NCBI RefSeq assembly: GCF_013201625.1
Contig: NZ_CP053839.1
Location: 2,212,458 to 2,276,457 of the forward strand
Length of the DNA stretch: 64,000 bases
Direction of reading: 5' to 3'
Source: Aliarcobacter lanthieri
GTDB lineage: Bacteria > Campylobacterota > Campylobacteria > Campylobacterales > Arcobacteraceae
In this document: positions 9,063 through 36,783 of the stretch, piece after piece
Numbering within the stretch: the first letter of the stretch is position 1
How the letters are laid out: every line of letters starts with the position of its first letter
Notes under the pieces: generated by a model
Told to the model about the DNA's origin: nothing
Seen by the model: the letters and a program-made list of their open reading frames with translations, nothing else
Databases searched by the model: none
Program-made: the position numbers and the translations under genes

Positions 9063-10088
9063 TTAAATCCCAGCTCCATCTTCAAAACTTCTCATATTTC
9101 TAGCACGAATACCTACAATATCATCTTTTTTTAGTTTCTTATCATTAAAATCGTAATGTGCCATTTCAACTAAAATTGTTCTTTTTTCATCTTTTATATC
9201 AGCTAACTCCACTTTTACAAAAGACCCTGCTAATTGTATATATTTTATTTTTGCTTTTTTGATTAAGTCATTATCATCTTTTGAAACTATTTCAAGTTCA
9301 TGAGGACGAATTAAAAATGTACCTTCACTTCCATCATCTTTTCTTTCATGGAATAGATTTACATTTCCTAAAAAGTTTATTACAAACTCATTTTTAGGAT
9401 TATGGAAAACCTCTTCAGGAGTACCAATTTGTTCAATTCTACCTTTATTTATAACAACTATTCTATTTGCAACTTCTAAAGCCTCTTCTTGATCATGAGT
9501 TACTAAAACAGTTGTAATTCCAAGTTCTTCTTGAAGTTCTTTTAACCATCTTCTTAAATCTGACCTAACTTTTGCATCCAAAGCTCCAAAAGGTTCATCT
9601 AAAAGTAACACTTTTGGCTCAACAGCTAAAGCTCTTGCTAACGCAACTCTTTGTCTCTGGCCTCCTGAAAGTTGCCAAGGAAATCTTGAAGCAAAACCAT
9701 CAAGTTGAATAAGTTTCAAAAGCTTTGTAACTTTTTCTTTTATATCTTTATTTGAAAGTCTCTCTTTTTTAGGTTTTACTCTAAGCCCAAAAGCTATATT
9801 TTCAAAAACTGTCATATGACGAAAAAGTGCATAATGTTGAAATACAAACCCTATATCTCTTTGTCCAATATCTTTTTTTGAAACATCAATATTATTAAAA
9901 AGAATCTCTCCTTTATCACTATTTTCAACTGTTTCAAGTCCAGCAATCATTCTTAAAAGAGTTGTTTTACCACTTCCTGAAGGACCTAAAAGAGCAAGTA
10001 ATTCACCCTCAACTATCTCCAGATTTATATTATTTAAGGCAACAAAATCACCAAAATATTTTGTTAAATTTTTTACTTCTATTTTCAT
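9063..10088 (-). CDS. cysA: Sulfate/thiosulfate ABC transporter ATPase CysA
   Basis: A 341-residue ATPase with Walker [10 protein letters not shown] (about residue 36), Q-loop FQHYALF, signature [15 protein letters not shown], Walker [12 protein letters not shown] and switch VTHDQEEA, followed by a C-terminal TOBE-like regulatory region. It energises the CysT-CysW sulfate channel at the inner membrane. The gene follows cysW by 3 bp and ends the cysTWA unit. Its matching binding-protein gene (sbp) lies 10 kb away in another operon with the same promoter type. Odd: the protein ends DGAGI, the same five residues as CysE in this window and close to the GGLGI of the Rrf2 regulator. Such Gly-x-Gly-Ile tails are known to dock into CysK. 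Confidence 0.95.
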
Positions 10089-10091
10089 TTT

Positions 10092-10952
10092 CTACTCTTC
10101 ATTATCTAATTTTTTAATTTTTCTTTGAACTTTCCACTCTAAAAGATATTTTAGAACTAAAGTAAAAAGTGCTAAAATTGCCAAAAGTGTTGAAACAGCA
10201 AAAGCTGCAACAAAGTTATATTCGTTATATAAAATTTCAACTTGTAATGGCATAGTATTTGTAACTCCTTGAATATGTCCAGATACAACAGAAACTGCTC
10301 CAAATTCACCCATTGCTCTTGCATTACATAAAATTACTCCATAAAGTAATCCCCACTTTATATTTGGTAAAGTAACTTTCCAAAATGTTTGGAATCCACT
10401 AGCACCTAAAAGTAATGCGGCTTGTTCTTCATCATTACCCATCTCTTGCATTAAAGGTATTAACTCTCTTGCAACAAATGGAAAAGTTACAAATATTGTT
10501 GCTAATACAATTCCAGGAACTGCAAAAATAATCTGTACATCATTTGCTATTAACCAAGAACCAAACCATCCTTGAGCTCCAAAAAGTAAAATATATACAA
10601 ATCCCGAAATTACAGGACTTACTGCAAATGGTAAGTCAATTAAAGTTATTAAAAAACTTTTACCAAAAAATGAGTATTTTGCTATTGCCCATGAAGCACA
10701 AACACCAAAAACTAAATTTAATGGAACTGCAATAGCTGCAGTTATAAATGTAAGTTTTATAGCACTTAATACATATTGATCTTCAAAGCTTAAAAAATAA
10801 GCTTCAACTCCTTTTCTAAAAGCTTCTGCAAAGATTGTAATCAAAGGAACAACAAGCATTATCATTAAAAAAGCAAGTGCAGTAAATATCAGAAGATATT
10901 TTACTAATCTTGATTCATTTTGTGAACTTTTTGTATTACTTATAGTTTTCAT
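10092..10952 (-). CDS. cysW: Sulfate ABC transporter permease CysW
   Basis: The start is placed at ATG 10950-10952 because GGAGG lies five bases upstream and because ATGA then overlaps the cysT stop codon by four bases, a sign of translational coupling. The 286-residue product has six membrane helices and the inner-membrane-component signature in [27 protein letters not shown], which contacts CysA, and [16 protein letters not shown] typical of CysW. Together with CysT it forms the sulfate/thiosulfate channel. Confidence 0.95.
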
Positions 10953-11803
10953 ATTGCCTCCATTCCTTTTCTTCTTGAACTCCATCTTTGAAGTATATTA
11001 ATAAGTAGTAACATTACAAAAGAGATTAAAAGCATAACTACTGCTATTGCTGTTGCTCCTGTATAATCATACTGCTCTAATTTTGTGATAATTAAAAGTG
11101 TACTAATCTCTGTTTTAAATGGCATATTTCCAGCAATAAAAACAACAGAACCATATTCACCTAAAGCTCTTGCAAATGAAAGTGCAAAACCAGTTAAAAG
11201 CGCAGGAAATATTGTAGGAAGTATCACTTTATAAAAAGTTTGCCATCTACTTGCACCTAAAGAAGCACTTGCTTCTTCTTGTTCTATTTGTATCTCTTCA
11301 AGTGCTGGTTGTACAGTTCTTACTACAAAAGGAAGACCTATAAAAATCAAAGCTATAGTTATTCCTATTGGTGTAAAAACTATTTTTAAACCTAAAGGCT
11401 CTAAATATTGCCCAAACCATCCTTGGCTTGAATATAAAGTTGTAAGAGCAATCCCTGAAACAGCTGTTGGAAGAGCAAAAGGCAAATCAACTATTGCATC
11501 AAAAACTCTTTTTCCAAAAAATGTATATCTTACTAAACACCAAGCAACAATTAGTCCAAAAACTGTATTTACCAATGCAGCAATAAGTGAAGTTATAAAA
11601 GTTAATTTATAACTTGCTATTACTCTTGAATCTGTAGTTGCTTTAATAAAAGTATCAAATCCCATACTGAAAGCTTCACTAAAAAGAGCAATTAGTGGGA
11701 TAAGTACAATGATACTTAAGTAGAATATTGTATATCCCATTGTCAAACCAAATCCTGGAATTGGAGAATTTGGTCTTTTTAATATTCCAAAATTTAATCT
11801 CAT
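10949..11803 (-). CDS. cysT: Sulfate ABC transporter permease CysT
   Basis: A 284-residue six-helix permease with the EAA-type loop ([21 protein letters not shown]) and the CysT-type block [17 protein letters not shown]. It is the first gene of cysTWA. The 144-bp gap upstream contains a TTGACA/TATAAT promoter with the island's shared operator, a strong hairpin followed by T residues, and a palindrome found before three other genes here, so expression is probably controlled both at initiation and in the leader RNA. Confidence 0.95.
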
Positions 11804-11822: not shown

Positions 11823-11845
11823 ACATACACTAAATTAGTGAATGT
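11823..11845. promoter_or_regulatory. ACACTAAAT palindrome, copy 1 (before cysT)
   Basis: ACATACACTAAATTAGTG followed by AATGT forms a nearly perfect palindrome: ACAT/ATGT outer and CACTA/TAGTG inner arms around AAT. It lies about 20-40 bases before the cysT start codon. Related palindromes precede sbp, one ssuA gene in mid-operon and the other ssuA gene. It may be a second operator or an RNA hairpin. Confidence 0.55.
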
Positions 11846-11862
11846 TTAAAATAGACAAAAAA

Positions 11863-11887
11863 ATAGATGATTAATTTAATCATCTAT
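11863..11887 (-). terminator. Terminator-like hairpin at the start of the cysT leader
   Basis: Read on the minus strand, ATAGATGATTA, loop AAT, TAATCATCTAT is a perfect 11-bp stem directly followed by a run of T. It begins only a few bases after the predicted transcription start of cysTWA and its first arm is half of the shared operator. It could end transcripts of the upstream sulfur operon, attenuate cysTWA, or both. Confidence 0.6.
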
Positions 11888-11947: not shown

Positions 11948-13159
11948 CTACTTTAATTTTAAATCTTTAACATTTATTGGTTCATCAAACCAATACCCTT
12001 GAAAATAATCAATATTTAATTCTTTACAACTTTCATAAATCTCTTTTGAAGATACAAATTCTGCAACAGTTTTCATTCCTACTTTTTGTGCAAAAAATAC
12101 TATTGCTTCAACTACAGCTTTTGCACTAAGTGATTTATTTATATCTTGTATTATTGAGCCATCTAATTTAATAAAATCTGCTTGAAGTTTAACTAAATAA
12201 GAAAAATTTGAATAACCTGTTCCAAAATCATCTATTGCTATTTTTACTCCTAAGCTTTTAACTATTTTTATAAAAGATACAACCTCTTCAAGATTATCTA
12301 TACCTTCACTTTCTGTTATCTCAATAGTCAATAAATGTCCTATATCAAATTCATAAATTTTTTGAATAATATAATCTACCACATCTTTCTCTAAAATATC
12401 ACTAATTGATAAGTTAATACTAAACTCTATATTTTTATTATCAAAAAATTCGAAAGATTTTTGAACTATTTTTTTTGTAATTTCACTATATAGATTTAAT
12501 TTTTTTGATCTATCAAGAAAAAAGTATGGTGAAACAATTTTTCCTTTTTCATCTTTCATTCGAACTAGAACTTCATATTTTTTTTCTGTTTGATTATTTA
12601 TACTTTGAGCAAAAACTTCAAACTTATCTTTTTTTACAGCTTGAATAATTTGAGATTCCCAATATAGATCTTGTTCTATTATTGAAGATCTTGGATGACA
12701 AATATGATGTTGTTCACTATCATAAATTACTAAATTGTGTTTTAAAACTCTTGTTTGTTTTAAAGCAAACTCTGCACTAAAAATAAGTTCGTCATAATTT
12801 ATAGCAACTCCAGCTCTTAGAGGAATATATACTTTATGTTCATCTAATTCTATTGGAGAATAACCAAAATACCATATTATTGATTTTATAGATTGTATAA
12901 ATCTATCTTTTGATAATTCAAAACTAGAAGCTGCTGCAAAAATATCAGCTCCTAAATAATAGATTTTACTACATATAAATTTTTCCTCTAATCTTAAAGA
13001 TATAAGTTTTAAAATCTTTTCTCCAAAATTATATCCATAATAGTGATTTATATTTCCAAATCCACTTATATCAAATATAACTAACTTATCAAAAATCTTA
13101 CTTTCGATATCTTTTAAAAACTCTTTTCTATTTGCTAATAAAATCTCATTTTCTTCCAT
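11948..13159 (-). CDS. EAL-domain protein with degenerate GGDEF domain
   Basis: A 403-residue cytoplasmic protein. Residues about 20-165 look like a GGDEF fold (FDISGFGNINHYYGYNFGEKIL), but the catalytic motif has become LGADIF, so no cyclase activity is expected. Residues about 175-400 form an EAL domain with EVL in place of EAL, the metal-site DDFGTGYS intact, conserved NLS, EITESE, KLDGS, AEFV and QGYW. It may hydrolyse or sense cyclic-di-GMP. It follows the ThiF-rhodanese gene by 8 bp, so it appears to be the last gene of the sbp-encapsulin operon, an unusual place for a second-messenger protein. Confidence 0.9.
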   Translation of the reverse strand: MEENEILLANRKEFLKDIESKIFDKLVIFDISGFGNINHYYGYNFGEKILKLISLRLEEKFICSKIYYLGADIFAAASSFELSKDRFIQSIKSIIWYFGYSPIELDEHKVYIPLRAGVAINYDELIFSAEFALKQTRVLKHNLVIYDSEQHHICHPRSSIIEQDLYWESQIIQAVKKDKFEVFAQSINNQTEKKYEVLVRMKDEKGKIVSPYFFLDRSKKLNLYSEITKKIVQKSFEFFDNKNIEFSINLSISDILEKDVVDYIIQKIYEFDIGHLLTIEITESEGIDNLEEVVSFIKIVKSLGVKIAIDDFGTGYSNFSYLVKLQADFIKLDGSIIQDINKSLSAKAVVEAIVFFAQKVGMKTVAEFVSSKEIYESCKELNIDYFQGYWFDEPINVKDLKLK

Positions 13160-13167
13160 AAATCCCC

Positions 13168-14304
13168 TTAAATCAAATCATTTACCCAAGAAGTGATTCC
13201 ACCTTTTAAACTATAAAGTTCACCTTTATATCCAGCCTTTTTTAGTTTTGAAATAGCTTGAAGACTTAGAAGTCCTATCTTACAAGTTATAACAGTTTTT
13301 TTACTAATATCAAGTTCTTCAATTCTATCTATTAGAGTTGAAAATGGTATATTTTTTGCATTTTTAATAAGAGCTAAATCATCTTCGATTTTTTCTCTAA
13401 CATCAATTATTTGAATGTCTTGCTTTTTATCAAGTAATTTTTTTAAATCTAAAATTGTTATATCTTCAATAATAAAATTCTCATCAAGATTCTTTAGTCC
13501 ACAAAACTCTTCATAATCTATGAGTTCTTTTATTGTTGGATTTTTCCCACAAACAGGACAATTCTCATCTTTTTGTATTTTATACTCTTTAAATTCCATT
13601 TTTAAAGCATTTAAAGATAAAAGTCTATTTTTTAAACTATCTCCAATTCCTAGTATTAACTTTATAGTTTCATTTGCTTGAATTGTCCCAATAATCCCAG
13701 GTAATACTCCTAAAACTCCAGCTTCTGAACAAGATGGTACTTGTCCAGCTTTTGGTGGAGTTGGAAATATACATCTATAACAAGCACTTTTATTTGAATT
13801 AAATACTGTTGTTTGTCCTTCAAATCTAAAAATAGCACCATAAACAAAAGGTTTATCTAGTATTACACAAGCATCATTTATCAAATATCTTGTTTGAAAG
13901 TTATCTGTTCCATCTACAACAATATCAAAATCCTTTATGATATCTAAAGCATTTTGACTAGTTAGTTTTTCATTTATGGCTATTACATTTATATTTGGAT
14001 TTAGTTCATCAATTTTACTATTTGCTGAAGATACTTTACTTTTTCCTATAAATTTTGTAGAGTGGATAATTTGTCTTTGTAAGTTTGATTCATCAAGAGT
14101 ATCAAAGTCTATAAAACCAATTGTGCCAACTCCAGCTGCACTAAGATATAGTAAAACTGGAGAGCCTAAAGCTCCTGTTCCAACAACTAAAACTTTTGCA
14201 TTTTTTAGTTTTAGTTGTCCTTCAAGTCCTACTTCAGGAAGAATTAGATGTCTACTATATCTAGTTATCTCTTCTTGCGAAAGTCTATTTTGTTTTGACA
14301 TCAT
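13168..14304 (-). CDS. ThiF/MoeB-type activating enzyme with C-terminal rhodanese (second copy)
   Basis: A 378-residue E1-like adenylyltransferase. The nucleotide loop VLVVGTGALGSP, the SNLQRQIIH block, zinc Cys pairs CYRC and CPVC, and a C-terminal rhodanese domain (about 275-378) with catalytic loop CKIGLLS are all present. Such enzymes adenylate the C-terminal Gly of a ubiquitin-like sulfur carrier and load sulfur from the rhodanese persulfide. It is a paralog of the MoeZ-like gene at 18853-20022 in the same operon. AGGAG lies three bases before the first ATG and six before the second, so translation may start one codon later. Perhaps each copy serves a different carrier or sulfur source. 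Confidence 0.92.
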   Translation of the reverse strand: MMSKQNRLSQEEITRYSRHLILPEVGLEGQLKLKNAKVLVVGTGALGSPVLLYLSAAGVGTIGFIDFDTLDESNLQRQIIHSTKFIGKSKVSSANSKIDELNPNINVIAINEKLTSQNALDIIKDFDIVVDGTDNFQTRYLINDACVILDKPFVYGAIFRFEGQTTVFNSNKSACYRCIFPTPPKAGQVPSCSEAGVLGVLPGIIGTIQANETIKLILGIGDSLKNRLLSLNALKMEFKEYKIQKDENCPVCGKNPTIKELIDYEEFCGLKNLDENFIIEDITILDLKKLLDKKQDIQIIDVREKIEDDLALIKNAKNIPFSTLIDRIEELDISKKTVITCKIGLLSLQAISKLKKAGYKGELYSLKGGITSWVNDLI

Positions 14305-14358
14305 ATGCTCCTATTTCAAATTTGAATAGAAGAATATCACAATTGCAGTTAATAATTT

Positions 14359-15696
14359 CTATTCAAAGATATTAGTAGTAATTCCAGCATACCAAGATTT
14401 TGTTGCATCAAAAGTTGATTTTTCTATATCTTCAAAAAACTCTGTTTTTACTTTTACTTTTCCATCCACTTTATCAAAATATGCTTGATGTGTTACATAA
14501 ATACCTGTCTCTTGACTTACAAGTGAATAACACACATTTTGTGGATAAACACTTCCTTCTTTTGGGTCTTCTTTATTCAATCTTCTTGCTATTTGTTCAC
14601 CTACAATAATTCCACAAGAGTGTGCCATTTGTGCACTTTTTGGGAAAGGATACTCACCTACAACATCTCCAACTAAATAGATATTATCATCATTGTAACT
14701 TCTAAATGTTGGTGTTTTTACTCTTCCAAAACCATCACTTGTAAGTTCTAATCCACTATCTTTTAATAGTTTTGAAGCTTTATTACTTGGGATAATATTT
14801 GCATCATCAAAAACTAAAGTTTGATTTGTAATTTCCATCTCTTTTAAATCATTCTTTTCAAAATATATAGTTCTTTTATCTAAATCAATTTTTTTAATAT
14901 TTGCATTTGGGATATACTCTAAATAATCTTTATATAAAGTATCAAATGCTTTTAAAAATCCTTTAGCTTTTGTTGTTGGTTTTTCTCTTGGGTCAATTAT
15001 CACAACTTTTGCATTTAATTTTTTAGATTTAAAATAATCTGCAATTACAGCAGCTCTTTCATAAGGAGCAGGAGGACATCTATAAGAACCTTTTGGTACA
15101 GTTATAACAAAAGTCCCTCCTTTAAAGTTTTCTATTTTTTCTTTTAATGACAGTTGTTCAAAACCTCCACTATAACTAGCAGGGAATTTTGTAAAAGCTT
15201 TTTTTGCATCTTTTTCATCTAAACCAAAAGTTGAATAATCATATTCGATTCCTGTTGCTAAAACTAATAAAGAGTATTCATAGTTACCATTTAAAGTATT
15301 AACTACTTTTTTTGTTCTATCAATAGATACAACTTTGTCATTTATCACTTCATAATCATAAATTGAAGCTGGTTTTAATGGAGAAAAAATCAAATCATTA
15401 TAGTCTACACCTTTTATTCCACCAAACCATAAGTTACTATAAGGGCAAGATGCAAATATATTTTTTGACTCAATCACTATAACTTCTACTTTTTGGTTAT
15501 ATAATCTTATATTTTTTGCGACTGTTAAACCTGCATATCCACCACCAATAATTATTACTCTATCACTATTATTTAACTTTTTTACTTCATTTTTTGAAAT
15601 ATTTGACTCTTCTTTTTTAGTATTTGAACCAAAAACTGATGTTGCAGTAACTGCTGTTGCTAAAGTACCTAATTTTAGTAAATCTCTTCTATTCAT
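14359..15696 (-). CDS. FccB-like sulfide dehydrogenase flavoprotein (Tat-exported)
   Basis: A 445-residue FAD protein with a twin-arginine signal (MNRRDLLKLGTLATAV), a Rossmann FAD motif VIIIGGGYAGLTVA (about 47-60) and a second FAD block YLVGDVVG (about 340). Cysteines lie where flavocytochrome c sulfide dehydrogenases have the FAD-linking Cys (Cys84 in ASCPYSN) and the redox disulfide (Cys207 in YRCPPAPYERA, Cys389 in QNVCYSLV). The C-terminal ~70 residues match the FCSD flavin-binding end. It should oxidise sulfide to sulfur or polysulfide in the periplasm. No cytochrome subunit gene (fccA) is adjacent. It lies 27 bp after cysE in the encapsulin operon. Confidence 0.85.
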   Translation of the reverse strand: MNRRDLLKLGTLATAVTATSVFGSNTKKEESNISKNEVKKLNNSDRVIIIGGGYAGLTVAKNIRLYNQKVEVIVIESKNIFASCPYSNLWFGGIKGVDYNDLIFSPLKPASIYDYEVINDKVVSIDRTKKVVNTLNGNYEYSLLVLATGIEYDYSTFGLDEKDAKKAFTKFPASYSGGFEQLSLKEKIENFKGGTFVITVPKGSYRCPPAPYERAAVIADYFKSKKLNAKVVIIDPREKPTTKAKGFLKAFDTLYKDYLEYIPNANIKKIDLDKRTIYFEKNDLKEMEITNQTLVFDDANIIPSNKASKLLKDSGLELTSDGFGRVKTPTFRSYNDDNIYLVGDVVGEYPFPKSAQMAHSCGIIVGEQIARRLNKEDPKEGSVYPQNVCYSLVSQETGIYVTHQAYFDKVDGKVKVKTEFFEDIEKSTFDATKSWYAGITTNIFE

Positions 15697-15723
15697 CTAT
15701 TCTCCTTTTTAATTAATTTAATT

Positions 15724-16461
15724 TTAAATTCCTGCACCATCAACTAAATAATCGTCCAATAATTCAAATTTTTTATTTAGTTCTTGAATACTCTCATTAT
15801 TTAAAATCTCTTTTTCTCTAAGTATATTTTCCAATAATTCAATTCTTTTATTTAAATACCTAAAAGCTTCTTTATCTATATCAGGTAAATCACTATGAGT
15901 AAATTTTCCTTCTTTATCATACCTTTTTACGATATTTGCAGGTATTCCAACAGCCGTTGAATAACTTGGAACATCATTTATTACAACTGAATTTGCTCCA
16001 ATTTTACTACTTGTACCAATAGTAATATCTCCTAGCACTTTTGCTCCACTCCCGATAACACTATTAGCTCTAACAGTAGGATGTCTTTTACCTTTGTTTA
16101 GGCTAACTCCACCTAAAGTAACACCCTGATAAATTAAAACATCATCTTCAACAATAGTAGTTTCACCAATAACAACACCGATTCCATGGTCAATAAATAC
16201 CCTTCTCCCAATAGTTGCAGCTGGGTGAATATCTGTATTTGTTAAAAATTGGCTAATTCCACTATAAACTCTTGCTAATCTTTTAAATCCTTTTAAATAC
16301 AATCTATTTGCTACTCTATAATTAATAATAGCCCAAACACCAGGATAATTAAAGAATATTTCTATTTTTGAATGTAATGCAGGATCATTACTTTTTGGAA
16401 GATTAAAATCTTCTCTTATTTGATCAAAAAGATTTAATTTTGCACTTCTACTCTTTTGCAT
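15724..16461 (-). CDS. cysE: Serine O-acetyltransferase CysE
   Basis: A 245-residue left-handed beta-helix acetyltransferase: hexapeptide repeats from about residue 75 (IHPAATIGRRVFIDHGIGVVIG), catalytic His in FIDHG and the TLGG and RHPTV blocks of the SATase family. It makes O-acetylserine from serine and acetyl-CoA. After a Lys/Glu-rich C-terminal helix it ends VDGAGI; a C-terminal Ile is the part of CysE that enters the CysK active site. It lies 9 bp downstream of the desulfurase cargo gene, an order (shell, desulfurase, SATase) characteristic of Family 2A encapsulin operons. Confidence 0.95.
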   Translation of the reverse strand: MQKSRSAKLNLFDQIREDFNLPKSNDPALHSKIEIFFNYPGVWAIINYRVANRLYLKGFKRLARVYSGISQFLTNTDIHPAATIGRRVFIDHGIGVVIGETTIVEDDVLIYQGVTLGGVSLNKGKRHPTVRANSVIGSGAKVLGDITIGTSSKIGANSVVINDVPSYSTAVGIPANIVKRYDKEGKFTHSDLPDIDKEAFRYLNKRIELLENILREKEILNNESIQELNKKFELLDDYLVDGAGI

Positions 16462-16470
16462 TAAAAATCC

Positions 16471-17907
16471 TTAACTATTTTTAAACTCTTTAATAGTTTT
16501 AACTAAAAAATCTATCTCTTCTTTTGTATTGTAAAAAGCGATAGATGGACGAACAGTTGTCTCAACTCCAAATCTTCTTAAAATCGGTTGTGCACAATGG
16601 TGTCCAAATCTTAAAGCTATTCCTTTACTTGTAAGATACTCTCCAACTTTTGTTGTATCATATCCATCAATAACAAATGATAAAACACTTGTTTTCTCTT
16701 TTGCTGTTCCTATAAATCTAAGCCCTGTAATCTCATTCATTTTAGCTATTGCATAATCTAAAAGTTTATGTTCATAATTGTAAATATTTTCTATTCCAAT
16801 TTTATTAACATAATCAATTGCTGCACCAAATCCTACAGCATCTGCAATATTTCCAGTTCCTGCTTCAAATTTATTTGGTGCAGCTTGATAAACTGTCTTT
16901 TCAAAAGTAACATCAGCTATCATATTTCCACCACTTTGATATGGTTGCATAATATCTAAAAGCTCTTTTTTAGCATATATCGCACCAATTCCTGTTGGAG
17001 CAAATACTTTATGTCCTGAAAAAATATAAAAATCACAATCAAGCTCTTGAACATCAACTTTTATATGTGATATTGCTTGAGCACCATCTATTAAAACTTT
17101 TACTCCATATCTGTGAGCAATTTCTACTACTTGTTTTATTGGAACAATTGTTCCTAAAGCATTTGATACATGAGCAATTGATACAATTTTTGTTCTAGGA
17201 GTTATTAATCTTTCAAACTCATTTAGTAAAATTTGTCCATCATTATCAACAGGAATTACCTTGATTTTTGCATCTACTTCTTGACTTAATATTTGCCAAG
17301 GAACAATATTTGCATGATGCTCTAAATTTGAAACTATTATCTCATCATCTTTTTGCAAATTAAATTTACCAAAACTATGTACAATCAAATTTATAGCTTC
17401 TGTTGCACCTCTTACAAAAATAATGTTATTTTCACTAGATGCATTTATAAATTTTGCTACTTTTTTTCTAGCCTCTTCATAAGCGTCAGTTGCTCTTGCT
17501 GCTAATGCGTGAGCACCTCGATGAATATTTGAATTTTCATGTTCATAAAAGTAACTAATTCTATCTATTACACTTTTTGGTTTTTGCGTTGTTGCAGCAT
17601 TATCTAACCAAATTAGTGAGTAACCACCATTTACTTTTTGATTTAAAACTGGAAAATCTTTTCTTATAGCTTCTACATCAAATATCTCATAAGAGTTATT
17701 TTGTGGAACTATTTGAATATTTGAAAAAGTTTCAAAATTTGACACATCTTTATTCTCATAAAAATTTGTTTGAATCACTTTTTCATAGTCAAAATCTTCG
17801 CCAAATCCATTTTTATTAAATTCAGGAAATGCTTGATTTGCCAAAATTTCTATTTGATTTTTATAAAACTCTTCATCAAAATTTGGTAAATTATTGTGCG
17901 TAATCAT
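16471..17907 (-). CDS. sufS: SufS-type cysteine desulfurase, predicted encapsulin cargo
   Basis: A 478-residue PLP enzyme. Residues about 75-478 match class II (SufS) desulfurases: DNAATTQKP, HHANIVPW, IDGAQAISH, PLP Lys300 in FSGHK and catalytic Cys438 in FGHHCAQP. It converts cysteine to alanine and enzyme persulfide. Residues 1-74 are an extra acidic, Asn/Phe-rich, low-complexity segment absent from ordinary SufS, as expected for the cargo-loading domain of Family 2A encapsulin desulfurases, though shorter than the one I recall from Synechococcus. Its start overlaps the end of the shell gene by 17 bp, which argues for tight coupling with the shell. Confidence 0.93.
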   Translation of the reverse strand: MITHNNLPNFDEEFYKNQIEILANQAFPEFNKNGFGEDFDYEKVIQTNFYENKDVSNFETFSNIQIVPQNNSYEIFDVEAIRKDFPVLNQKVNGGYSLIWLDNAATTQKPKSVIDRISYFYEHENSNIHRGAHALAARATDAYEEARKKVAKFINASSENNIIFVRGATEAINLIVHSFGKFNLQKDDEIIVSNLEHHANIVPWQILSQEVDAKIKVIPVDNDGQILLNEFERLITPRTKIVSIAHVSNALGTIVPIKQVVEIAHRYGVKVLIDGAQAISHIKVDVQELDCDFYIFSGHKVFAPTGIGAIYAKKELLDIMQPYQSGGNMIADVTFEKTVYQAAPNKFEAGTGNIADAVGFGAAIDYVNKIGIENIYNYEHKLLDYAIAKMNEITGLRFIGTAKEKTSVLSFVIDGYDTTKVGEYLTSKGIALRFGHHCAQPILRRFGVETTVRPSIAFYNTKEEIDFLVKTIKEFKNS

Positions 17908-18835
17908 AGTAGTTTCCTACATCTACATCTTCTAAAACTGCTATTGCATCTTTTGATAAAATTACTGCTGAACAATATAGTGATAAAAGGTATGAACCAA
18001 CTCCATTACTATCTATTCCTCTAAATTTTACAGATAATCCTCGTGATTGTTCATTTGGTAAATTATTTTGGAATAATCCAACAACCCCTTGTTTTTCATA
18101 ACCTGTTCTAACTAATAAAATATTAGTTTTTCCAGCTTTTGATTTTGGCTCTTTTAATCCATCAACAAATAATTTATTTGTAGGAATAATAGGAACTCCT
18201 CTCCAAGTTAAAAATGATGTTCCAAATAAGCTTATAGTTGCTGGAGGAACTCCTCTTCTTGTAGCTTCTCTTCCAAATGCAGCTATTGCTTTTGGGTGTG
18301 CTAAAAAAAATGATGGCTCTTTCCAAACTTTTGTTAATAACTCATCTAAATCATCAGGAGTTGGACTTCCTGTTCGGCTTTGAACTCTTTGAGAATCATC
18401 AATATTATTTAATAATCCATAATCATCATTATTAAATAATTCACTTTCTTGTCTCTCTTTTAAACTCTCAATTGCAAGTCTTAGTTGCTCTTGAATTTGT
18501 TGTGTTGGAGAGCTATATAAATCAGATACTTTTGTATTTACATTTATAATTGTTTGAATTGAGTTTAATTGATATTCTCTAGGATTTTCTTCATAATCCA
18601 CGAACCCTTCTGGAATTTTATTATGAATTTTTTGTGAACATAAAGTATCAAGTGGAGTATCTCCCTCTTTTACTTTATTTAATCTAAAAATACCACTATC
18701 CAAAGATTTCCAATCAAGTAATCTTGTAACCCATCTTGGAGTTAATGAATCAAAAACTGGTGTTGTTTTTACAACATCTGCCAAATTATAAGCTGCTTTT
18801 GCACTTAAACTTACTACTTTATTTTCCTCTGCCAT
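17891..18835 (-). CDS. Family 2A encapsulin shell protein (SrpI-like)
   Basis: A 314-residue protein matching the Family 2A encapsulin (SrpI) pattern: N-terminal LSAKAAYNLADVVKTTP and LTPRWVTRLLDWK, then RTGSPTPDDLDELLTKVWK, FFLAHPKAIAAFGREATRRG, FLTWRGVPIIPTNKL, and the C-terminal GLFQ...LSVKFRGID and AVLEDVDVGNYYDY. Family 2A proteins adopt the HK97 phage capsid fold and assemble into closed shells that enclose a cysteine desulfurase; in Acinetobacter such shells were reported to store elemental sulfur. There is no inserted cyclic-nucleotide domain, which separates it from Family 2B. The cargo gene overlaps its 3' end. It is in mid-operon among cysteine-synthesis genes, so shells probably form when the operon is on. 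Confidence 0.95.
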   Translation of the reverse strand: MAEENKVVSLSAKAAYNLADVVKTTPVFDSLTPRWVTRLLDWKSLDSGIFRLNKVKEGDTPLDTLCSQKIHNKIPEGFVDYEENPREYQLNSIQTIINVNTKVSDLYSSPTQQIQEQLRLAIESLKERQESELFNNDDYGLLNNIDDSQRVQSRTGSPTPDDLDELLTKVWKEPSFFLAHPKAIAAFGREATRRGVPPATISLFGTSFLTWRGVPIIPTNKLFVDGLKEPKSKAGKTNILLVRTGYEKQGVVGLFQNNLPNEQSRGLSVKFRGIDSNGVGSYLLSLYCSAVILSKDAIAVLEDVDVGNYYDYAQ

Positions 18836-18852
18836 TTTATTTCCCTTTTTTA

Positions 18853-20022
18853 TTAATATCTAGCCATTGTGTAATCTATATCATTTGCCCAAGAAGTTAT
18901 TCCACCTTTTAGACTATAGATTTCACCCTCATATCCAGCTTCTTTTAATTGTCTGATCACTTCAGCACTTAAAAGCCCTATTTTACATATTACTACTACT
19001 TTTTTACTACTATCGAGTTCATCTTTTTTTCTAACTAATTGACCAAAGGGAATACCTTTTGAACCTTCAATCTTTCCTATTTGTAACTCATGTGGTTGCC
19101 TAATATCTATTAGTTGAACAGGTCTTTTTTCATTTATTAGATTTTTTAAATCTATTGCACTGATCTCTTCTACCTCAACTCTATCATCAGGACCTTTTAA
19201 TCCACAAAATTCTTCATAATCTATAAGTTCTGTTACTGTTGGATTTTCCCCACAAACTGGGCAATTGTTATCTTTTCTCACTTTTAATTCTTTAAATTGC
19301 ATTTTTAGTGCATCAAAAATCAAAAGTCTTCCACTTAAAACTTCACCTATTCCTAAGATTAATTTTATTGTCTCATTTGCTTGAATTGTTCCAATAACTC
19401 CTGGTAAAACTCCTATAACTCCACCTTCAGCACAAGAAGGAACTAGTCCAACTGGAGGTGGTTCTGGATATAGACATCTATAACAAGCTTTATTATTTTC
19501 ATTAAAAACACTTACTTGACCTTCAAATCTAAAAATAGAACCATAAACAAATGGTTTATTTAAAAGTACGCTAGAGTCATTTATCAAATATCTTGTCTGA
19601 AAGTTATCTGTTCCATCTACAACAATATCAAAATTCTTAATAATATCTAAAGAGTTTTTACTTGTTAATTTATCATTATATGAGATAACTTTAACATTTG
19701 GATTTATCCCTTTTATTCTATCAGTTGCTGAAGATATTTTCGGTCTACCTATATCTTTTGTTGTATGAATAATTTGCCTTTGCAAATTTGATTCATCAAC
19801 TGTATCAAAATCTATAAGCCCAATAGTACCAACTCCAGCAGCTGCAAGATATAAAATAACAGGAGCTCCAAGCCCACCAGTTCCTACAACTAAAACTTTT
19901 GCATTTTTTATTTTTAATTGTCCTTCAAGACCAACTTCAGGTAAAATCAAGTGTCTACTATATCTACTTATTTCCTCTGAAGATAGTTTTTCCTGCTTAT
20001 CACTCTTATCATCTTTTCCCAT
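18853..20022 (-). CDS. MoeZ-like carrier-activating enzyme (ThiF/MoeB plus rhodanese)
   Basis: The start is placed at ATG 20020-20022, just after the carrier gene's stop, with AGGTGGA upstream; an earlier ATG six codons before overlaps that gene. The 389-residue product has the ATP loop VLVVGTGGLGAP, SNLQRQIIH, zinc pairs CYRC and CPVC, and a C-terminal rhodanese domain with active loop CKIGLLS. This architecture equals mycobacterial MoeZ, which adenylates and thiocarboxylates the carrier CysO. Adjacent genes encode the carrier, a JAMM protease and a CysM-like synthase, so it is the expected activator of that pathway. Confidence 0.93.
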   Translation of the reverse strand: MGKDDKSDKQEKLSSEEISRYSRHLILPEVGLEGQLKIKNAKVLVVGTGGLGAPVILYLAAAGVGTIGLIDFDTVDESNLQRQIIHTTKDIGRPKISSATDRIKGINPNVKVISYNDKLTSKNSLDIIKNFDIVVDGTDNFQTRYLINDSSVLLNKPFVYGSIFRFEGQVSVFNENNKACYRCLYPEPPPVGLVPSCAEGGVIGVLPGVIGTIQANETIKLILGIGEVLSGRLLIFDALKMQFKELKVRKDNNCPVCGENPTVTELIDYEEFCGLKGPDDRVEVEEISAIDLKNLINEKRPVQLIDIRQPHELQIGKIEGSKGIPFGQLVRKKDELDSSKKVVVICKIGLLSAEVIRQLKEAGYEGEIYSLKGGITSWANDIDYTMARY

Positions 20023-20023
20023 T

Positions 20024-20299
20024 TTATAATCCACCTGCAATAGATGGAACTAAAATAATCTTGTCATCATCATAAACTTTTGTATCTAAGTTATCTAAAC
20101 CTCTAATATCTTCTTCATTTAGATATATATTTACAAAACTTCTCAATTTTCCATCTGTAGAAAATAGATGATTTTTTAAATCTTGATGTGTATTTACTAA
20201 ATTTCCTACAATATCTTTTATATTTTCACCTTCTAAAGCTATTTCAAACTCTCCGTTTGTAAATAGTCTTAAAGCTGTTGGTATATAAACTTTTGCCAT
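20024..20299 (-). CDS. ThiS/MoaD/CysO-like sulfur-carrier protein
   Basis: A 91-residue beta-grasp protein. It shows the MoaD/CysO pattern: VYIPTALRLFTNG at the N-terminus, RSFVNIYLNEEDIRGLDNLDTKVYDDD and IILVPSIAGGL at the end. The carrier Gly-Gly is followed by one extra Leu, so the last residue probably must be removed before the Gly can be adenylated, as HcyD does for the Wolinella carrier HcyS. The thiocarboxylated form would donate sulfur to the CysM-like enzyme. It lies between the JAMM gene (1 bp) and the MoeZ-like gene. Confidence 0.93.
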   Translation of the reverse strand: MAKVYIPTALRLFTNGEFEIALEGENIKDIVGNLVNTHQDLKNHLFSTDGKLRSFVNIYLNEEDIRGLDNLDTKVYDDDKIILVPSIAGGL

Positions 20300-20300
20300 T

Positions 20301-20723
20301 TTAAACTCCTTTTATCTCTTCTTTTTCAAAATTTAATCTATCATTTGAAAGTACTGAAACGGTATAATCAACCGCTTTTTTATCATAAACAGAAACTATC
20401 AAATATGTATAAACAGGAAGTGCATGGTCTATATCAAATTGAGATGGTGTTGCACTATGATTTGGATGTGAGTGGTAAAATCCAACTATATCCAAACCAT
20501 TTTTTATAGCATAAAGTTCTGTTTCTAATACCTTTTTTGATGGTATTAAATACCTATTATGCTTATTCTCATCTTCTCTTTCATTTGATATTTCTATCAC
20601 TTCACTAACAGTTTTCTTACCCTCATTAAACTTACCTAAAAGTATTCCACAACACTCGTATGGATAATCATTTTGGGCATGTTCATTTATTTTTTCCATA
20701 AGATTTTTACTAATTTCTATCAT
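20301..20723 (-). CDS. JAMM metalloprotease, Mec/HcyD-like
   Basis: The start is ATG 20721-20723, which overlaps the cysM stop (ATGA); a start five codons earlier is possible but less likely. The 140-residue protein has the zinc JAMM motif: Glu in YPYECCGILLG, then H-x-H-x10-D in FYHSHPNHSATPSQFD. Mec of Mycobacterium cuts cysteine off the CysO-cysteine adduct; HcyD of Wolinella trims the carrier's tail. Here both tasks are plausible because the carrier ends GGL. Confidence 0.92.
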   Translation of the reverse strand: MIEISKNLMEKINEHAQNDYPYECCGILLGKFNEGKKTVSEVIEISNEREDENKHNRYLIPSKKVLETELYAIKNGLDIVGFYHSHPNHSATPSQFDIDHALPVYTYLIVSVYDKKAVDYTVSVLSNDRLNFEKEEIKGV

Positions 20724-21631
20724 AAATCTTCTTCCCATAAGCTATCACTTAAATATTTAAAACCACTATCACATAAAATGGTTACTATAACACTTCCTTT
20801 TGGTAGTGTTTTTGCTAATTCTAAACTAGCATATACATTAGCACCTGAAGAAATTCCTACAAAAAGTCCCTCTTTTCTAATTAGTTCTAATGTCATTTTT
20901 CTAGCATCCTCTGTATCAATTTCAATAGTTTCATCAATCAATGAACTATCATAAATTTCAGGAACTATTGTTGTTGCCATATGTTTCATACCTTCAAGTC
21001 CATGAAATGGTGAAGATGGTTGCATAGCAATAGTTTTAATCTCTTTATTTAACTCTTTTAATCTTCTTGATGTTCCTACAAAAGTTCCAGAAGTTCCCAT
21101 TCCTGCTACGAAATGTGTAACCTTATTTTCACTTTGTTTCCAAATTTCTAAAGCAGTTGAATTATAATGAGCTTTCCAGTTCTCTTCATTGTTATACTGA
21201 TTTGTATAGTAATAAAGTTCTGGATACTCTTTTGCCAACTCTTTTGCTTTGATTAAAGCTCCATCTGAACTTAAAAGAGGATCTGTTTCAATTATAGTTG
21301 CACCAAAAGCTTTTAAAATTCTTTTTCTCTCAAAATTTGCATTTTTAGGTAAAGTTACACTAACTTTATAACCCAAATGTGCACCAAGCATTGCATAAGC
21401 AATTCCTGTATTTCCACTCGTACTATCTAGTATAATTTTTTCTTGTGTGAGTTTTCCACTATTTATTGCTTCTAAAATAATCCCCTTTGCAGCTCTATCT
21501 TTTACAGAGCCACTAGGGTTTAAATATTCAGCTTTTGCATAAATGCTTATGCCATCTAAATCTTTTGTTAAAGAATTTAGTTTTATTAGTGGCGTATTTC
21601 CAACTAGATCTAAAATAGTATTATTTGCCAC
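20720..21631 (-). CDS. cysM: CysM-like cysteine synthase (thiocarboxylate-dependent type)
   Basis: A 303-residue fold-type II PLP enzyme. The PLP Lys is in GSVKDRAA, the substrate loop is TSGNTGIA, and the phosphate site THFVAGMGTSGTFVG. The blocks THFVAG, VPEIYD, GLFVGISSGA and SGFKYLS resemble mycobacterial CysM, which uses O-phosphoserine and a protein thiocarboxylate, more than sulfide-using CysK. Its product, cysteine on the carrier, is released by the JAMM protease encoded next. Which serine ester it uses is not clear; cysE in the same operon supplies O-acetylserine. Confidence 0.88.
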   Translation of the reverse strand: MANNTILDLVGNTPLIKLNSLTKDLDGISIYAKAEYLNPSGSVKDRAAKGIILEAINSGKLTQEKIILDSTSGNTGIAYAMLGAHLGYKVSVTLPKNANFERKRILKAFGATIIETDPLLSSDGALIKAKELAKEYPELYYYTNQYNNEENWKAHYNSTALEIWKQSENKVTHFVAGMGTSGTFVGTSRRLKELNKEIKTIAMQPSSPFHGLEGMKHMATTIVPEIYDSSLIDETIEIDTEDARKMTLELIRKEGLFVGISSGANVYASLELAKTLPKGSVIVTILCDSGFKYLSDSLWEEDL

Positions 21632-21648
21632 TTTTCTATACCTTTAAT

Positions 21649-22734
21649 TTATTTACTATAAATTAAATCAAATGTTCCACCATCATCAAAATGTGTTTTT
21701 TGTGCAATTGCCCAACTTCCAAAAACATCATCAATTTTAAATAACTCTAATTTTGGAAAAGTTTCTAAATATTTTGCATCAACTAGCTCTGGAATACTTG
21801 GTCTATAGTAATGTTTAGCTGCTAATGTTTGACCTTCTTTTGAATATAAATATTTTAAATATTGTGTTGAAACATTTAATGTTCCTAGTTGTTTAGCATT
21901 TTGTTCAACTACAGTTACAGGTGGTTCAGCTAAAATTGAAACCGAAGGTACAACTATTTCAAATTCATCTTTTCCAAGTTCATTTATTGCTAAAAATGCT
22001 TCATTTTCCCATGCAAGTAAAACATCTCCTATCTTTCTTTGTACAAATGTATTAGTTGCTCCTCTAGCACCTGAGTCAAGAACAGGAACATGTTTTAAAA
22101 GTTTTGAAACATACTCTTTTGCTTTTTCTTCTGCTTTTTTATATTTATCTGAATTAAAATCTATTTTTTCTAAATTCCCTAACTCTTGTTTTAGACCATA
22201 AGCATAAGCTGCAAGATAGTTCCATCTAGCTCCACCTGATGTTTTTGGATTTGGAGTTATCACTTCAACACCATCTTTTACTAAATCATCCCAATCTTTA
22301 ATACCTTTTGGATTACCTTTTCTAACTAAAAATACAATAGTTGAAGTATAAGGAGATGAGTTAAACTCTAGTTTTTTTTGCCAATCTTTTGGAAATAATT
22401 TTGCTTTTTCACTAATTGCATCTATATCATAAGCTAATGCTAAAGTTACAACATCTGCTTTTAATCCATCAATTACACCTCTTGCTTGTTTACCACTTCC
22501 ACCATGTGATTGTTTTATTTTTACAGTTTGTCCTGTTGTTTCTTTCCAATAATTTACAAAATTCTTATTGTACTCTTCATAAAACTCTCTTGTTGGATCA
22601 TACGATACATTTAAAATCTCTAAAGATTTTTTTGCCTTCTCTGCTTCATAATTATAATCATCTGCAAAACTTGTTGTTGAAATTAGCAATGTTGCTAAAG
22701 CTATATTTCTTAAATTTTCTTTTATTCTTCTCAT
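21649..22734 (-). CDS. sbp: Periplasmic sulfate-binding protein
   Basis: A 361-residue secreted protein with signal peptide ending ...STTSFA. It matches Sbp/CysP throughout: [65 protein letters not shown] and [24 protein letters not shown], all of which surround the bound sulfate. It hands sulfate to CysTWA, encoded in a separate unit at 9063-11803. It is the first gene of the eleven-gene sulfur operon and is preceded by a 347-bp gap with a promoter, operator and Cys-containing leader peptide. Confidence 0.95.
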
Positions 22735-22752
22735 TTTATTCTCTCTTTATCT

Positions 22753-22776
22753 AATACACACTAAATGTGTGATAAT
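22753..22776. promoter_or_regulatory. ACACTAAAT palindrome, copy 2 (before sbp)
   Basis: AATACACACTAAATGTGTGA holds arms ACACA (22756-22760) and TGTGT (22766-22770) around CTAAA. Compared with the copies at 28988 and 33513, one base pair has changed on both sides (C-G for T-A), so the symmetry is kept. It ends about 20 bases before the sbp start codon. Confidence 0.55.
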
Positions 22777-22799
22777 TTAGAGATTTAAAAAAATCTCAC

Positions 22800-22844
22800 C
22801 TATTTTCTCTTTCCATATTTTTTCTTACACATGTCGCACATCAT
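22800..22844 (-). CDS. Leader peptide MMCDMCKKKYGKRK
   Basis: A 14-codon open frame between the sbp promoter and sbp. It starts ATGATG at 22844 with AAGGA six bases upstream and ends TAG at 22800-22802. The peptide has a C-x2-C pair followed by a basic tail. A second leader at 33567-33614 begins with the same six residues, with a silent Asp codon change (GAC/GAT) between them, and the downstream RNA differs widely; this pattern argues for selection on the peptide or its codons. Cys codons at positions 3 and 6 suggest ribosome stalling when cysteinyl-tRNA is scarce. A metal- or persulfide-binding peptide is an alternative. Confidence 0.75.
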   Translation of the reverse strand: MMCDMCKKKYGKRK

Positions 22845-22862: not shown

Positions 22863-22895
22863 AGGTGATTTTAAATCTCTCTTTATCTATCACCT
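22863..22895 (-). promoter_or_regulatory. Possible 5' leader stem upstream of the MMCDMC frame
   Basis: On the minus strand AGGTGA (right half of the operator) and TCACCT, 21 bases later, can pair. In the 33-kb leader the corresponding bases are AGATGA and TCATCT, 19 bases apart, so a pair has changed on both sides. The second arm sits just before the leader peptide's ribosome binding site. It could equally be an extra DNA half-site. Confidence 0.45.
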
Positions 22896-22938
22896 ACTAA
22901 ACTGGTGAAATTATAGTAATAAAATTTTTATTTGTCAA
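22889..22938 (-). promoter_or_regulatory. sbp operon promoter with Rrf2-type operator
   Basis: On the minus strand: TTGACA (22933-22938), 17 bases, TATAAT (22910-22915), one base, then TCACCAGTTTAGTAGGTGA (22890-22908). The operator is an inverted repeat with arms TCACC and GGTGA and covers the expected transcription start. Confidence 0.8.
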
Positions 22939-28985: not shown

Positions 28986-29004
28986 ATATACACTAAATGT
29001 ATGA
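28986..29004. promoter_or_regulatory. ACACTAAAT palindrome, copy 3 (mid-operon, before ssuA copy 2)
   Basis: ATACACTAAATGTAT at 28988-29002 has arms ATACA and TGTAT around CTAAA. It lies in the only sizeable gap within the operon and about 22 bases before the ssuA start. No TTGACA/TATAAT promoter accompanies it, which suggests an RNA-level role or an independent operator. Confidence 0.5.
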
Positions 29005-33510: not shown

Positions 33511-33533
33511 ATATACACTAAATGTATGATAAT
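33511..33533. promoter_or_regulatory. ACACTAAAT palindrome, copy 4 (before ssuA copy 1)
   Basis: ATACACTAAATGTAT at 33513-33527 has arms ATACA and TGTAT around CTAAA and continues GATAAT as in the sbp copy. It ends about 22 bases before the ssuA start codon. Confidence 0.55.
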
Positions 33534-33566: not shown

Positions 33567-33614
33567 TTAAAATATTTTTACTTTTTTAAAATATCTACAC
33601 ATATCGCACATCAT
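33567..33614 (-). CDS. Leader peptide MMCDMCRYFKKVKIF
   Basis: A 15-codon open frame in the leader of the organosulfur operon, starting ATGATG at 33614 with AAAGGA upstream and ending TAA at 33567-33569. Its first six residues equal those of the leader before sbp (22800-22844); the rest differs but stays basic. In both leaders the stop codon is followed within about 10 bases by GGTGAGATTTT, which may belong to a hairpin that responds to ribosome position. The shared Cys codons at positions 3 and 6 point to cysteine-dependent control. Confidence 0.75.
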   Translation of the reverse strand: MMCDMCRYFKKVKIF

Positions 33615-33632: not shown

Positions 33633-33663
33633 AGATGAATAAATAGTTTTATATCTATCATCT
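33633..33663 (-). promoter_or_regulatory. Possible 5' leader stem (second copy)
   Basis: AGATGA and TCATCT on the minus strand, 19 bases apart, can pair at the start of the transcript. The sbp leader has AGGTGA and TCACCT at the same place, and the cysT leader has AGATGA and TCATCT in its hairpin. Confidence 0.45.
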
Positions 33664-33706
33664 ATTAAATTGGTGAAATAATACTACTAAAAATACTTTT
33701 TGTCAA
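33657..33706 (-). promoter_or_regulatory. Organosulfur (ssu) operon promoter with Rrf2-type operator
   Basis: On the minus strand: TTGACA (33701-33706), 17 bases, TATTAT (33678-33683), one base, then TCACCAATTTAATAGATGA (33658-33676). Confidence 0.8.
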
Positions 33707-36734: not shown

Positions 36735-36783
36735 TCATCTATTAAATTGGTGATATTATATAAATAAAAAATATCTTTGTCAA
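36735..36783 (-). promoter_or_regulatory. Cysteine importer promoter with Rrf2-type operator
   Basis: On the minus strand: TTGACA (36778-36783), 17 bases, TATAAT (36755-36760), one base, then TCACCAATTTAATAGATGA (36735-36753), identical to the operator of the ssu operon. No MMCDMC leader follows. Confidence 0.8.

Follow-up and report, generated by a model that had tools for sequence, protein, structure and literature searches.

A recurrent Family 2A desulfurase-encapsulin operon with a candidate carrier route back to cysteine in Aliarcobacter lanthieri

How does a cell regain sulfur that has been stored inside a protein shell? The question is raised by a locus of Aliarcobacter lanthieri, situated in a window of 64,000 nucleotides (the whole stretch of DNA analyzed; NZ_CP053839.1, positions 2,212,458 to 2,276,457) of a genome of 2,276,457 bases in one contig. 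On the minus strand of the window, the genes of a Family 2A encapsulin shell and its cysteine desulfurase cargo stand in one cluster with those of a sulfur carrier, two E1-rhodaneses, a JAMM metalloprotease, a CysM-like synthase and the serine O-acetyltransferase CysE (Table 1). A related shell reportedly stores elemental sulfur, as Benisch is said to have found in 2024, and we know of no account of how cells regain sulfur stored in this way. The reading proposed here, to which we give an even chance, is that the cluster represents a widespread subtype of Family 2A desulfurase-encapsulin systems in which the shell likely banks cysteine sulfur and the co-encoded carrier route likely rebuilds cysteine.

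The shell protein is placed in Family 2A by its SrpI-type HK97 shell domain, by the lack of a cyclic-nucleotide-binding domain and by a desulfurase cargo with an N-terminal extension. PF19307 was the sole Pfam family detected in its 314 residues (326.5 bits, cut-off 22.8), no cyclic-nucleotide-binding domain was found among them, and the Family 2B model NF041163 stayed under its cut-off (381.3 of 400 bits). The protein is 98% identical to its counterpart in A. vitoriensis. One of its structural matches, PDB 8t6r, we take to be the Acinetobacter shell. The cargo extension had been put at 74 residues in a preliminary description of the locus; the SufS model, whose match spans residues 80-476, gives about 79. 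By the standard of the family this is a short extension, since the NF041166 match covers profile positions 194-622 only. The LDNAATT motif is preceded by 100 residues; the median is 176 among the 52 rows (of 74) that were aligned, those in which this motif made the start of the enzyme domain recognizable. The motif LAN-x-x-FP is kept in the cargo, and LAN-x-x-[FY]P was present in 33 of the 52 aligned N-termini, where it may act as a cargo loading signal. Passages of PMC8049743 describe a relative in which the N-terminal domain loads the cargo, and in which cysteine was modelled as small enough to pass a pore of 3.7 Angstrom; sulfur storage is also cited for such shells in an excerpt of PMC12407261.

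The preliminary description had seen in the remaining genes a complete CysO/Mec/CysM/MoeZ-type set. All the families of such a set are present, including the JAMM metalloprotease (PF14464), whose metal-binding motif could be read off the sequence as HSHPNHSATPSQFD, and an E1 with a C-terminal rhodanese (PF00899 and PF00581; rhodanese loop CKIGLLS), but the resemblance does not extend to the carrier end or to the type of the E1s. The carrier ends in GGL and not in the Gly-Gly (GG) of a CysO-type end. Both E1s contain two CXXC motifs (in E1-rhodanese 1 at residues 186 and 260, numbered with the listed TTG as start, and in E1-rhodanese 2 at residues 175 and 249), which passages of PMC3227635 give as a mark of MoeBR, MoeZR being mostly without them. 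The E1 is not of the MoeZR type by the moeZ model NF005902 either, scoring 495.5 of 647 bits. The carrier aligns to a chain of PDB 3dwg, its second-best structural match, and that chain stops at the matching GG; we take it to be mycobacterial CysO, from the CysM-CysO complex.

The same description regarded the combination of shell and carrier route as new and local, and proposed a search for the order shell, cargo, E1, carrier, JAMM protease and CysM in related genomes. When the shell was used in a wider scan and the loci of the best 80 of 480 relatives were searched with profiles grown from the window proteins, the order was found to recur widely, in records of nine phyla. Upstream sequence of 1.5 kb or more was available for 70 loci, and in 58 of them an E1-rhodanese lies directly upstream of the shell gene, a proportion that gives no rate for all Family 2A systems, because the 80 loci are those most closely related to the window. 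The possibility that the combination is unique to the window was rejected on these 58 E1-linked loci. A carrier domain was found in every one of them, in L023 only as a 65-residue piece. Where at least 3.8 kb upstream was available (54 loci), the E1 was detected in 45, the JAMM protease in 32 and CysM in 26 loci. CysE was located on one side of the shell in 34 of the 42 loci covered on both sides. A desulfurase gene comes after the shell gene in 71 of the 76 loci long enough to show one. Of the remaining five, four do have a cargo gene; it overlaps the shell open reading frame (ORF), and these four were scored as cargo-less in the neighbourhood profile count. A Lentisphaerae bin has two tandem shell genes ahead of the desulfurase (L003:8348-10200).

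The E1-linked records on the shell tree belong to Campylobacterota, Lentisphaerota, Bacillota, Planctomycetota, Pseudomonadota, Myxococcota, Fibrobacterota, Synergistota and Spirochaetota. Many of them are metagenome bins, and their phylum labels need caution, since L006 and L007, bins from a single sample series with different phylum assignments, have identical shell proteins, a sign of mis-binning. The E1-linked records that are not bins (Aliarcobacter, Paenibacillus, Ruminococcus flavefaciens, Klebsiella michiganensis and Enterobacter) still represent three phyla. In a tree of 86 shells, five classical Family 2A shells were split from the other 81 by a branch with support 100/99. The label for a nearby E1 required 6 changes on this tree compared with 21.9 in shuffles, nine shells with less than 1.5 kb upstream being labelled as short. 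Judged from this pattern the E1 linkage is a clustered trait that appears to have been gained or lost a few times, not one clean clade.

The carriers of these loci have a feature in common with that of A. lanthieri. The carrier forms the N-terminal part of an E1-rhodanese fusion in 39 loci, its GG lying inside the chain, and none of the 20 stand-alone carriers ends in GG, 19 having a tail and the L023 piece of 65 residues being without GG. A separate search with one fusion protein, in which the 8000 best candidates were scored, found ThiS, ThiF and rhodanese domains together in at least 120 matches, all of those listed. Because no carrier ends in GG, the carrier would have to be cut after the GG before a thiocarboxylate can form, and the JAMM protease thereby gains a putative first job besides the release of cysteine: it is probably the enzyme that must cut the tailed or fused carrier free.

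In the route proposed here each chemical step is predicted. By analogy with characterized relatives, the desulfurase would enter the shell by means of its N-terminal extension and convert cysteine to alanine and sulfane sulfur, the latter collecting in the shell. The JAMM protease would trim the tailed or E1-fused carrier so that a C-terminal Gly-Gly is exposed, a step to which the carrier tails point. The E1 would adenylate the carrier end, and the rhodanese, loaded by a low-molecular persulfide leaving the shell, would turn this end into a thiocarboxylate. CysE would provide O-acetylserine, which the CysM-like enzyme would join to the carrier sulfur, and cysteine would then be freed by the same JAMM protease.

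A second line of evidence comes from relatives that have the carrier and are without the shell. The shell was found in five of the 104 genomes of the family, all five in Aliarcobacter, and the carrier ends in GGL or GGI in each of the five as well as on plasmid pACIB. In the genus, sbp was detected by search in 23 of 31 genomes, 19 of these being without a shell. Seven of the 19 have a carrier directly after sbp (G003, G007, G008, G009, G024, G027 and G028; loci L117-L120 and L125-L127), and in all seven the GG is gone, the carriers ending in ITD, QAS, KAM or QAI; the absence of the shell is less sure for G024, because this genome is only 87% complete. Within about 1.5 kb of sbp no carrier was seen in the other 12. 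Six of the seven relatives with a GG-less carrier have at the sbp locus an E1 like E1-rhodanese 2 of the window. The history of the locus was approximated with an Sbp tree of 21 of the 23 genomes, G006 (protein missed by the search pattern) and G027 (in-frame stop) being left out and G005 having no Sbp match. The GG label changed at least three times among the ten labelled rows of this tree: G003 is sister to the shell-bearing G013 (99/100), and G007-G009 group with the shell-bearing G030 (95/95). Provided that Gly-Gly was the original carrier end, as it is across the wider family, loss of the shell module and loss of the carrier GG would have coincided in at least two lineages. The neighbourhood of the 80 related loci and this pattern of tail loss support a tie between the shell half and the thiocarboxylate half. 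The plasmid of A. cibarius mentioned above (pACIB, NZ_CP043858.1, locus L152) is a mobilizable plasmid of 237 kb with the same operon; insertion sequences interrupt it there in the region of the carrier and E1 genes, and leader codon 6 encodes Arg.

It is rather unlikely, in our judgement, that the two halves are merely co-regulated neighbours, that is, independent answers to sulfur starvation with a shared promoter and no exchange of sulfur. The surroundings would suit such an arrangement, as the cluster lies amid operons for sulfate and sulfonate uptake and an amino-acid transporter with which it has promoter-proximal elements in common, and classical Family 2A loci work without E1, carrier and protease; however, the position of the E1 directly upstream of the shell in most of the loci and in many phyla, and a carrier GG retained with the shell and lost without it, are not what independent neighbours would lead one to expect. 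Improbable, too, is a sulfur relay without storage, in which the encapsulated desulfurase would feed persulfide to the rhodanese for thiolation of the carrier and for other thio-cofactors. According to passages of PMC3227635, a desulfurase can serve an E1-linked rhodanese (human MOCS3 is cited) and the same has been proposed for MoeZR, and rhodanese docking on the shell exterior is proposed in an excerpt of PMC8346489. Against a relay it can be argued that making cysteine in real time from cysteine sulfur is pointless for cysteine supply, and that a sealed shell is a poor relay toward a protein outside. Least probable appears a ubiquitin-like tag, linked by the E1 to shell or cargo and removed by the JAMM protease in control of the shell and not in cysteine synthesis: the carrier and the protease do resemble SAMP1 and desampylase, both below the cut-offs (52.7 of 60 and 67.5 of 130 bits), and tags, too, can mature from tailed precursors trimmed by a JAMM enzyme, but a cysteine synthase gene no more than 4.2 kb ahead of the shell gene in 26 of 54 loci, CysE on one side of so many shells and the carrier match to the chain taken to be CysO all point to cysteine.

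Several observations weigh against the proposed sulfur bank and its return route. The pore of the Synechococcus elongatus shell is only 3.7 Angstrom wide according to passages of PMC8049743, so the rhodanese cannot touch the cargo and a diffusible form of sulfur must be assumed. Unless its two arms operate at different times, a route that drains cysteine and rebuilds it is a futile cycle. Since CysD, CysN, CysH and CysK are also encoded, the carrier route need not be the sole way to cysteine. The synthase, the protease and the E1s fall below cut-off on the equivalog models of cysM, desampylase and moeZ, and the substrate assignments rest for this reason on context. The module is also variable: the E1 is not upstream in 12 of the 70 loci, among them L053, whose E1 lies downstream, and L050, which has the JAMM protease and CysM and gave no E1 match, and E1, JAMM protease and CysM occur together in only 22 of the 54 best-covered loci. 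Within Aliarcobacter, G005 has kept shell, cargo, E1 and carrier, with neither JAMM protease nor Sbp at the locus, and the only synthase there is CysK-like.

The operon can be compared with several known systems. Classical Family 2A loci, such as those of SrpI of Synechococcus elongatus and of the Acinetobacter shell, have the same shell family with the desulfurase directly downstream, and CysE is nearby in Synechococcus, Azospirillum and Variovorax as it is in Aliarcobacter; the Aliarcobacter cargo differs by its short N-terminus. Within 7 kb on either side of five classical shells (Synechococcus, Azospirillum, Variovorax, Methylosinus and Acinetobacter) no E1, carrier or JAMM protease was found, and at most stand-alone rhodaneses, CysK or CysE stand beside some of them. 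These shells were taken from records of a plasmid collection, and annotation was used for four of them (the Acinetobacter stretch carries none) and profiles for all five. With the mycobacterial CysO/Mec/CysM/MoeZ route the operon shares the carrier, the E1-rhodanese, the JAMM protease and the CysM-type synthase, whereas here the carrier is tailed or E1-fused, the E1 has the two CXXC motifs of MoeBR type, CysE is co-encoded, and a shell and a desulfurase are attached. In the QbsE/QbsD and HcyS/HcyD systems, of quinolobactin and methionine synthesis, JAMM enzymes remove the carrier residues after GG before thiolation; the trimming there is similar, and those systems are without a shell.

The same set of four genes was noted earlier: neighbourhood 4c of Iyer et al. 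2006 is described in passages of PMC1779556 as an uncharacterised operon of ThiS/MoaD, E1-rhodanese, JAB and cysteine synthase, with no encapsulin or desulfurase mentioned there; SrpI, desulfurase, major membrane and NifS are all absent as terms from the main text of that paper. According to a published survey (PMC8346489, in excerpt), the partners enriched around Family 2A desulfurase shells are serine acetyltransferase and 'rhodaneses'; its main text does not use the terms ThiF, thiocarboxyl, CysO or sulfur carrier, and that of PMC8049743 does not use rhodanese, ThiF, MoeZ or CysM. A search by title and abstract, with supplements and subscription papers outside its scope, found no published description of a shell combined with a thiocarboxylate route, and no paper with 'encapsulin' and 'thiocarboxyl' together was found in the literature searched; the combination may be reported outside that scope. 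What is new here is the tailed or fused carriers without terminal GG, and the GG that was kept with the shell and apparently lost in shell-less relatives in at least two lineages.

The FccB-like sulfide oxidase noted earlier in the operon is indeed present, but it is not part of a conserved core. Its gene was found in two of the five Aliarcobacter shell loci (that of the window and G012), while the stretches of G013 and G030 end at a contig end near CysE, and a single-sequence search gave no match in the 80 wider loci; core membership was rejected on these counts. A shell-less member of the genus (G019, locus L123) has an FccB-like gene directly after sbp, and such an enzyme can thus join the sbp locus without a shell.

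The ten named genes from sbp to E1-rhodanese 2 form one minus-strand cluster headed by sbp, as first described, and the families assigned to them were borne out by Pfam and NCBIfam profiles (Table 1). Gaps between these genes range from -17 to 54 nucleotides, and the EAL-type gene follows 8 nucleotides further on. The only promoter before the cluster that matches the consensus at 12 of 12 positions is at 22938-22910, and the next such match, at 11927-11899, lies ahead of cysT; terminator-like sites between these two promoters were not above chance (2 found, mean of shuffles 2.4). Given the small gaps and the one perfect promoter before sbp, with the next before cysT, transcription of the ten genes as a single unit is likely.

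Table 1. Features of the cluster, its leader region and the adjoining genes (positions in the window)
Feature	Position	Strand	Basis and remarks
Sigma-70 promoter TTGACA-17-TATAAT	22910..22938	minus	12/12 consensus positions
Inverted-repeat element E1, CACCAGTTTAGTAGGTGA, at expected transcription start	22890..22907	minus	Kin elements before other sulfur genes of the window
Leader ORF MMCDMCKKKYGKRK, 14 codons, AAGGA ribosome site	22800..22844	minus	N-terminus conserved in relatives
Conserved block GGTGAGATTTTTTT...TCACACATTTAGTGTGTATTA before sbp	22735..22800	minus	Nearly invariant columns in 27 leaders
sbp, sulfate-binding protein	21649..22734	minus	TIGR00971 438.8 bits, cut-off 155.5
CysM-like cysteine synthase, pyridoxal phosphate (PLP) type	20720..21631	minus	PF00291; TIGR01138 343.1 bits, under cut-off of 394.2
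JAMM/JAB metalloprotease (Mec-like)	20301..20723	minus	PF14464 (Prok-JAB) 78.9 bits, cut-off 25; start set at ATG 20723
CysO-like sulfur carrier, C-terminus AGGL	20024..20299	minus	PF02597 (ThiS family); best PDB matches 4n6e, 3dwg
E1-rhodanese 1 (ThiF and rhodanese, two CXXC)	18853..20022	minus	PF00899 287.7 bits, PF00581 56.6 bits; start set at ATG 20022, not at the listed TTG
Family 2A encapsulin shell protein	17891..18835	minus	NF041162 498.9 bits, cut-off 380; PDB matches 6x8m, 8t6r
Cysteine desulfurase cargo, short N-terminal extension	16471..17907	minus	NF041166 808.1 bits, cut-off 800; LANQAFPEF motif
CysE, serine O-acetyltransferase	15724..16461	minus	TIGR01172 229.6 bits, cut-off 210.65
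FccB-like sulfide dehydrogenase flavoprotein, twin-arginine start; accessory	14359..15696	minus	PF21706 94.3 bits
E1-rhodanese 2	13168..14304	minus	ThiF and rhodanese domains (PF00899, PF00581)
Cyclic di-GMP phosphodiesterase-like (EAL-type) protein, last gene ahead of cysT promoter	11948..13159	minus	Phosphodiesterase models, all under cut-off
cysT, cysW, cysA sulfate transporter, own promoter	9063..11803	minus	cysW from position and Pfam BPD_transp_1

The neighbours of the cluster in the window are the sulfate and sulfonate uptake operons and the amino-acid transporter, perhaps one for cystine. Genes for CysD, CysN, CysH and CysK were located 6 to 10 kb before the window, in a region where a sulfite reductase was not identified at the limit used, and the genome has a further strong Aminotran_5-family enzyme (419.5 bits). 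On these grounds the operon looks like an addition to normal sulfate assimilation and not its replacement. Directly ahead of the cysK and cysHDN genes there is an ORF (L181:9160-9573) with no NCBIfam match at the strict limit; presumably it is Rrf2/CymR-like, and it could be a sulfur regulator.

A short inverted-repeat element (about CACNNATTTAGTNNGTGA) was found on the minus strand at 11826-11841, 22757-22772, 22890-22907, 28989-29004, 33514-33529, 33658-33675 and 36735-36752, the sites lying in promoters or just 5' of the start codons of sbp, two ssuA genes, cysT and the amino-acid transporter. Two patterns, both derived from sites already seen, matched 4 and 5 times compared with 0.56 and 0.67 expected, and the element is perhaps a candidate binding site of a regulator. 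Before cysT, after the perfect promoter, a hairpin AGATGATTAAATTAATCATCT followed by a run of T (11857-11885, minus strand; -7.7 kcal/mol, z -4.5) looks like an attenuator; it was absent from the output of the terminator scan, which demands more G-C pairs.

Between the promoter and sbp lies a short leader ORF. In an alignment of 27 leaders, its first codons and the block GGTGAGATTTTTT...CACATTTAGTGT were nearly invariant, the remainder of the ORF varying freely. A second leader ORF, MMCDMCRYFKKVKIF, precedes the sulfonate operon at 33614. An exact-pattern search detected 21 leader sites in 17 of the 104 family genomes; of these sites 16 precede sbp and 5 precede ssuA. One further site, also ahead of sbp, was detected in another family, and a reversed control pattern had no matches. 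The exact pattern finds synonymous changes only, save Asp/Asn at codon 4 (in the own genome up to two mismatches were also allowed), and as it is nearly blind to amino acid changes, the search was redone starting from Sbp. Of the 23 genomes of the genus with sbp, the upstream region was readable in 22, G006 being left out because its Sbp was missed by the search pattern, and a leader ORF was present in all 22. The N-terminus is MMCDMC in 16 of these and MMCDMY, MMSDMC, MMSSMC, MMCDMI, MMYDMC or MMCPMS in the other six, and each of the 22 leaders retains the three Met codons and one or more Cys codons. With a sequence model, the leader was detected in 16 of 397 genomes across the phylum; 13 belong to Aliarcobacter, and the other matches are a full-length one elsewhere (G290) and two partial, weak ones.

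A folding test did not support a mechanism by which the main ribosome site would be masked by an anti-Shine-Dalgarno strand once a ribosome stands at the stop codon of the leader. The mean accessibility of the ribosome site was 0.65 in the starved setting compared with 0.73 in the replete setting, and where the difference exceeded 0.05 it was higher when starved in 2 and when replete in 15 of the 27 leaders. RNAalifold predicted 13 pairs in the leaders, none with a compensatory change, and Rfam gave no match in the window at gathering scores. Because of the failed test and the lack of compensatory pairs, the claim made here is limited to a conserved ORF and block, with no structure. The codon content of the leader suggests sensing of sulfur amino acids, a role for which literature searches (cysteine leader peptides with Campylobacter; cysteine codons and leader ORFs with sulfur) returned nothing relevant. 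In its fullest form the proposal is tentative: in a large subtype of desulfurase encapsulins the shell would be a rechargeable bank for cysteine sulfur, from which a tailed, protease-matured carrier returns cysteine without free sulfide, and in Aliarcobacter the leader would govern this bank as a whole, its Met-Met-Cys-Asp-Met-Cys codons reading the supply of sulfur amino acids.

For Family 2A systems, the loci give many of the 'rhodanese' partners of shells a specific identity. Most of those in the loci examined belong to a carrier-E1-rhodanese machine: in the 58 E1-linked loci, the rhodanese domain encoded ahead of the shell is the C-terminal part of a carrier-activating E1. The leader ORF would, if confirmed, be a new sulfur-sensing element. 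As for the return of stored sulfur, a complete candidate route is encoded in the same operon and matches the pattern of loss in relatives, which makes the question testable with six or seven genes.

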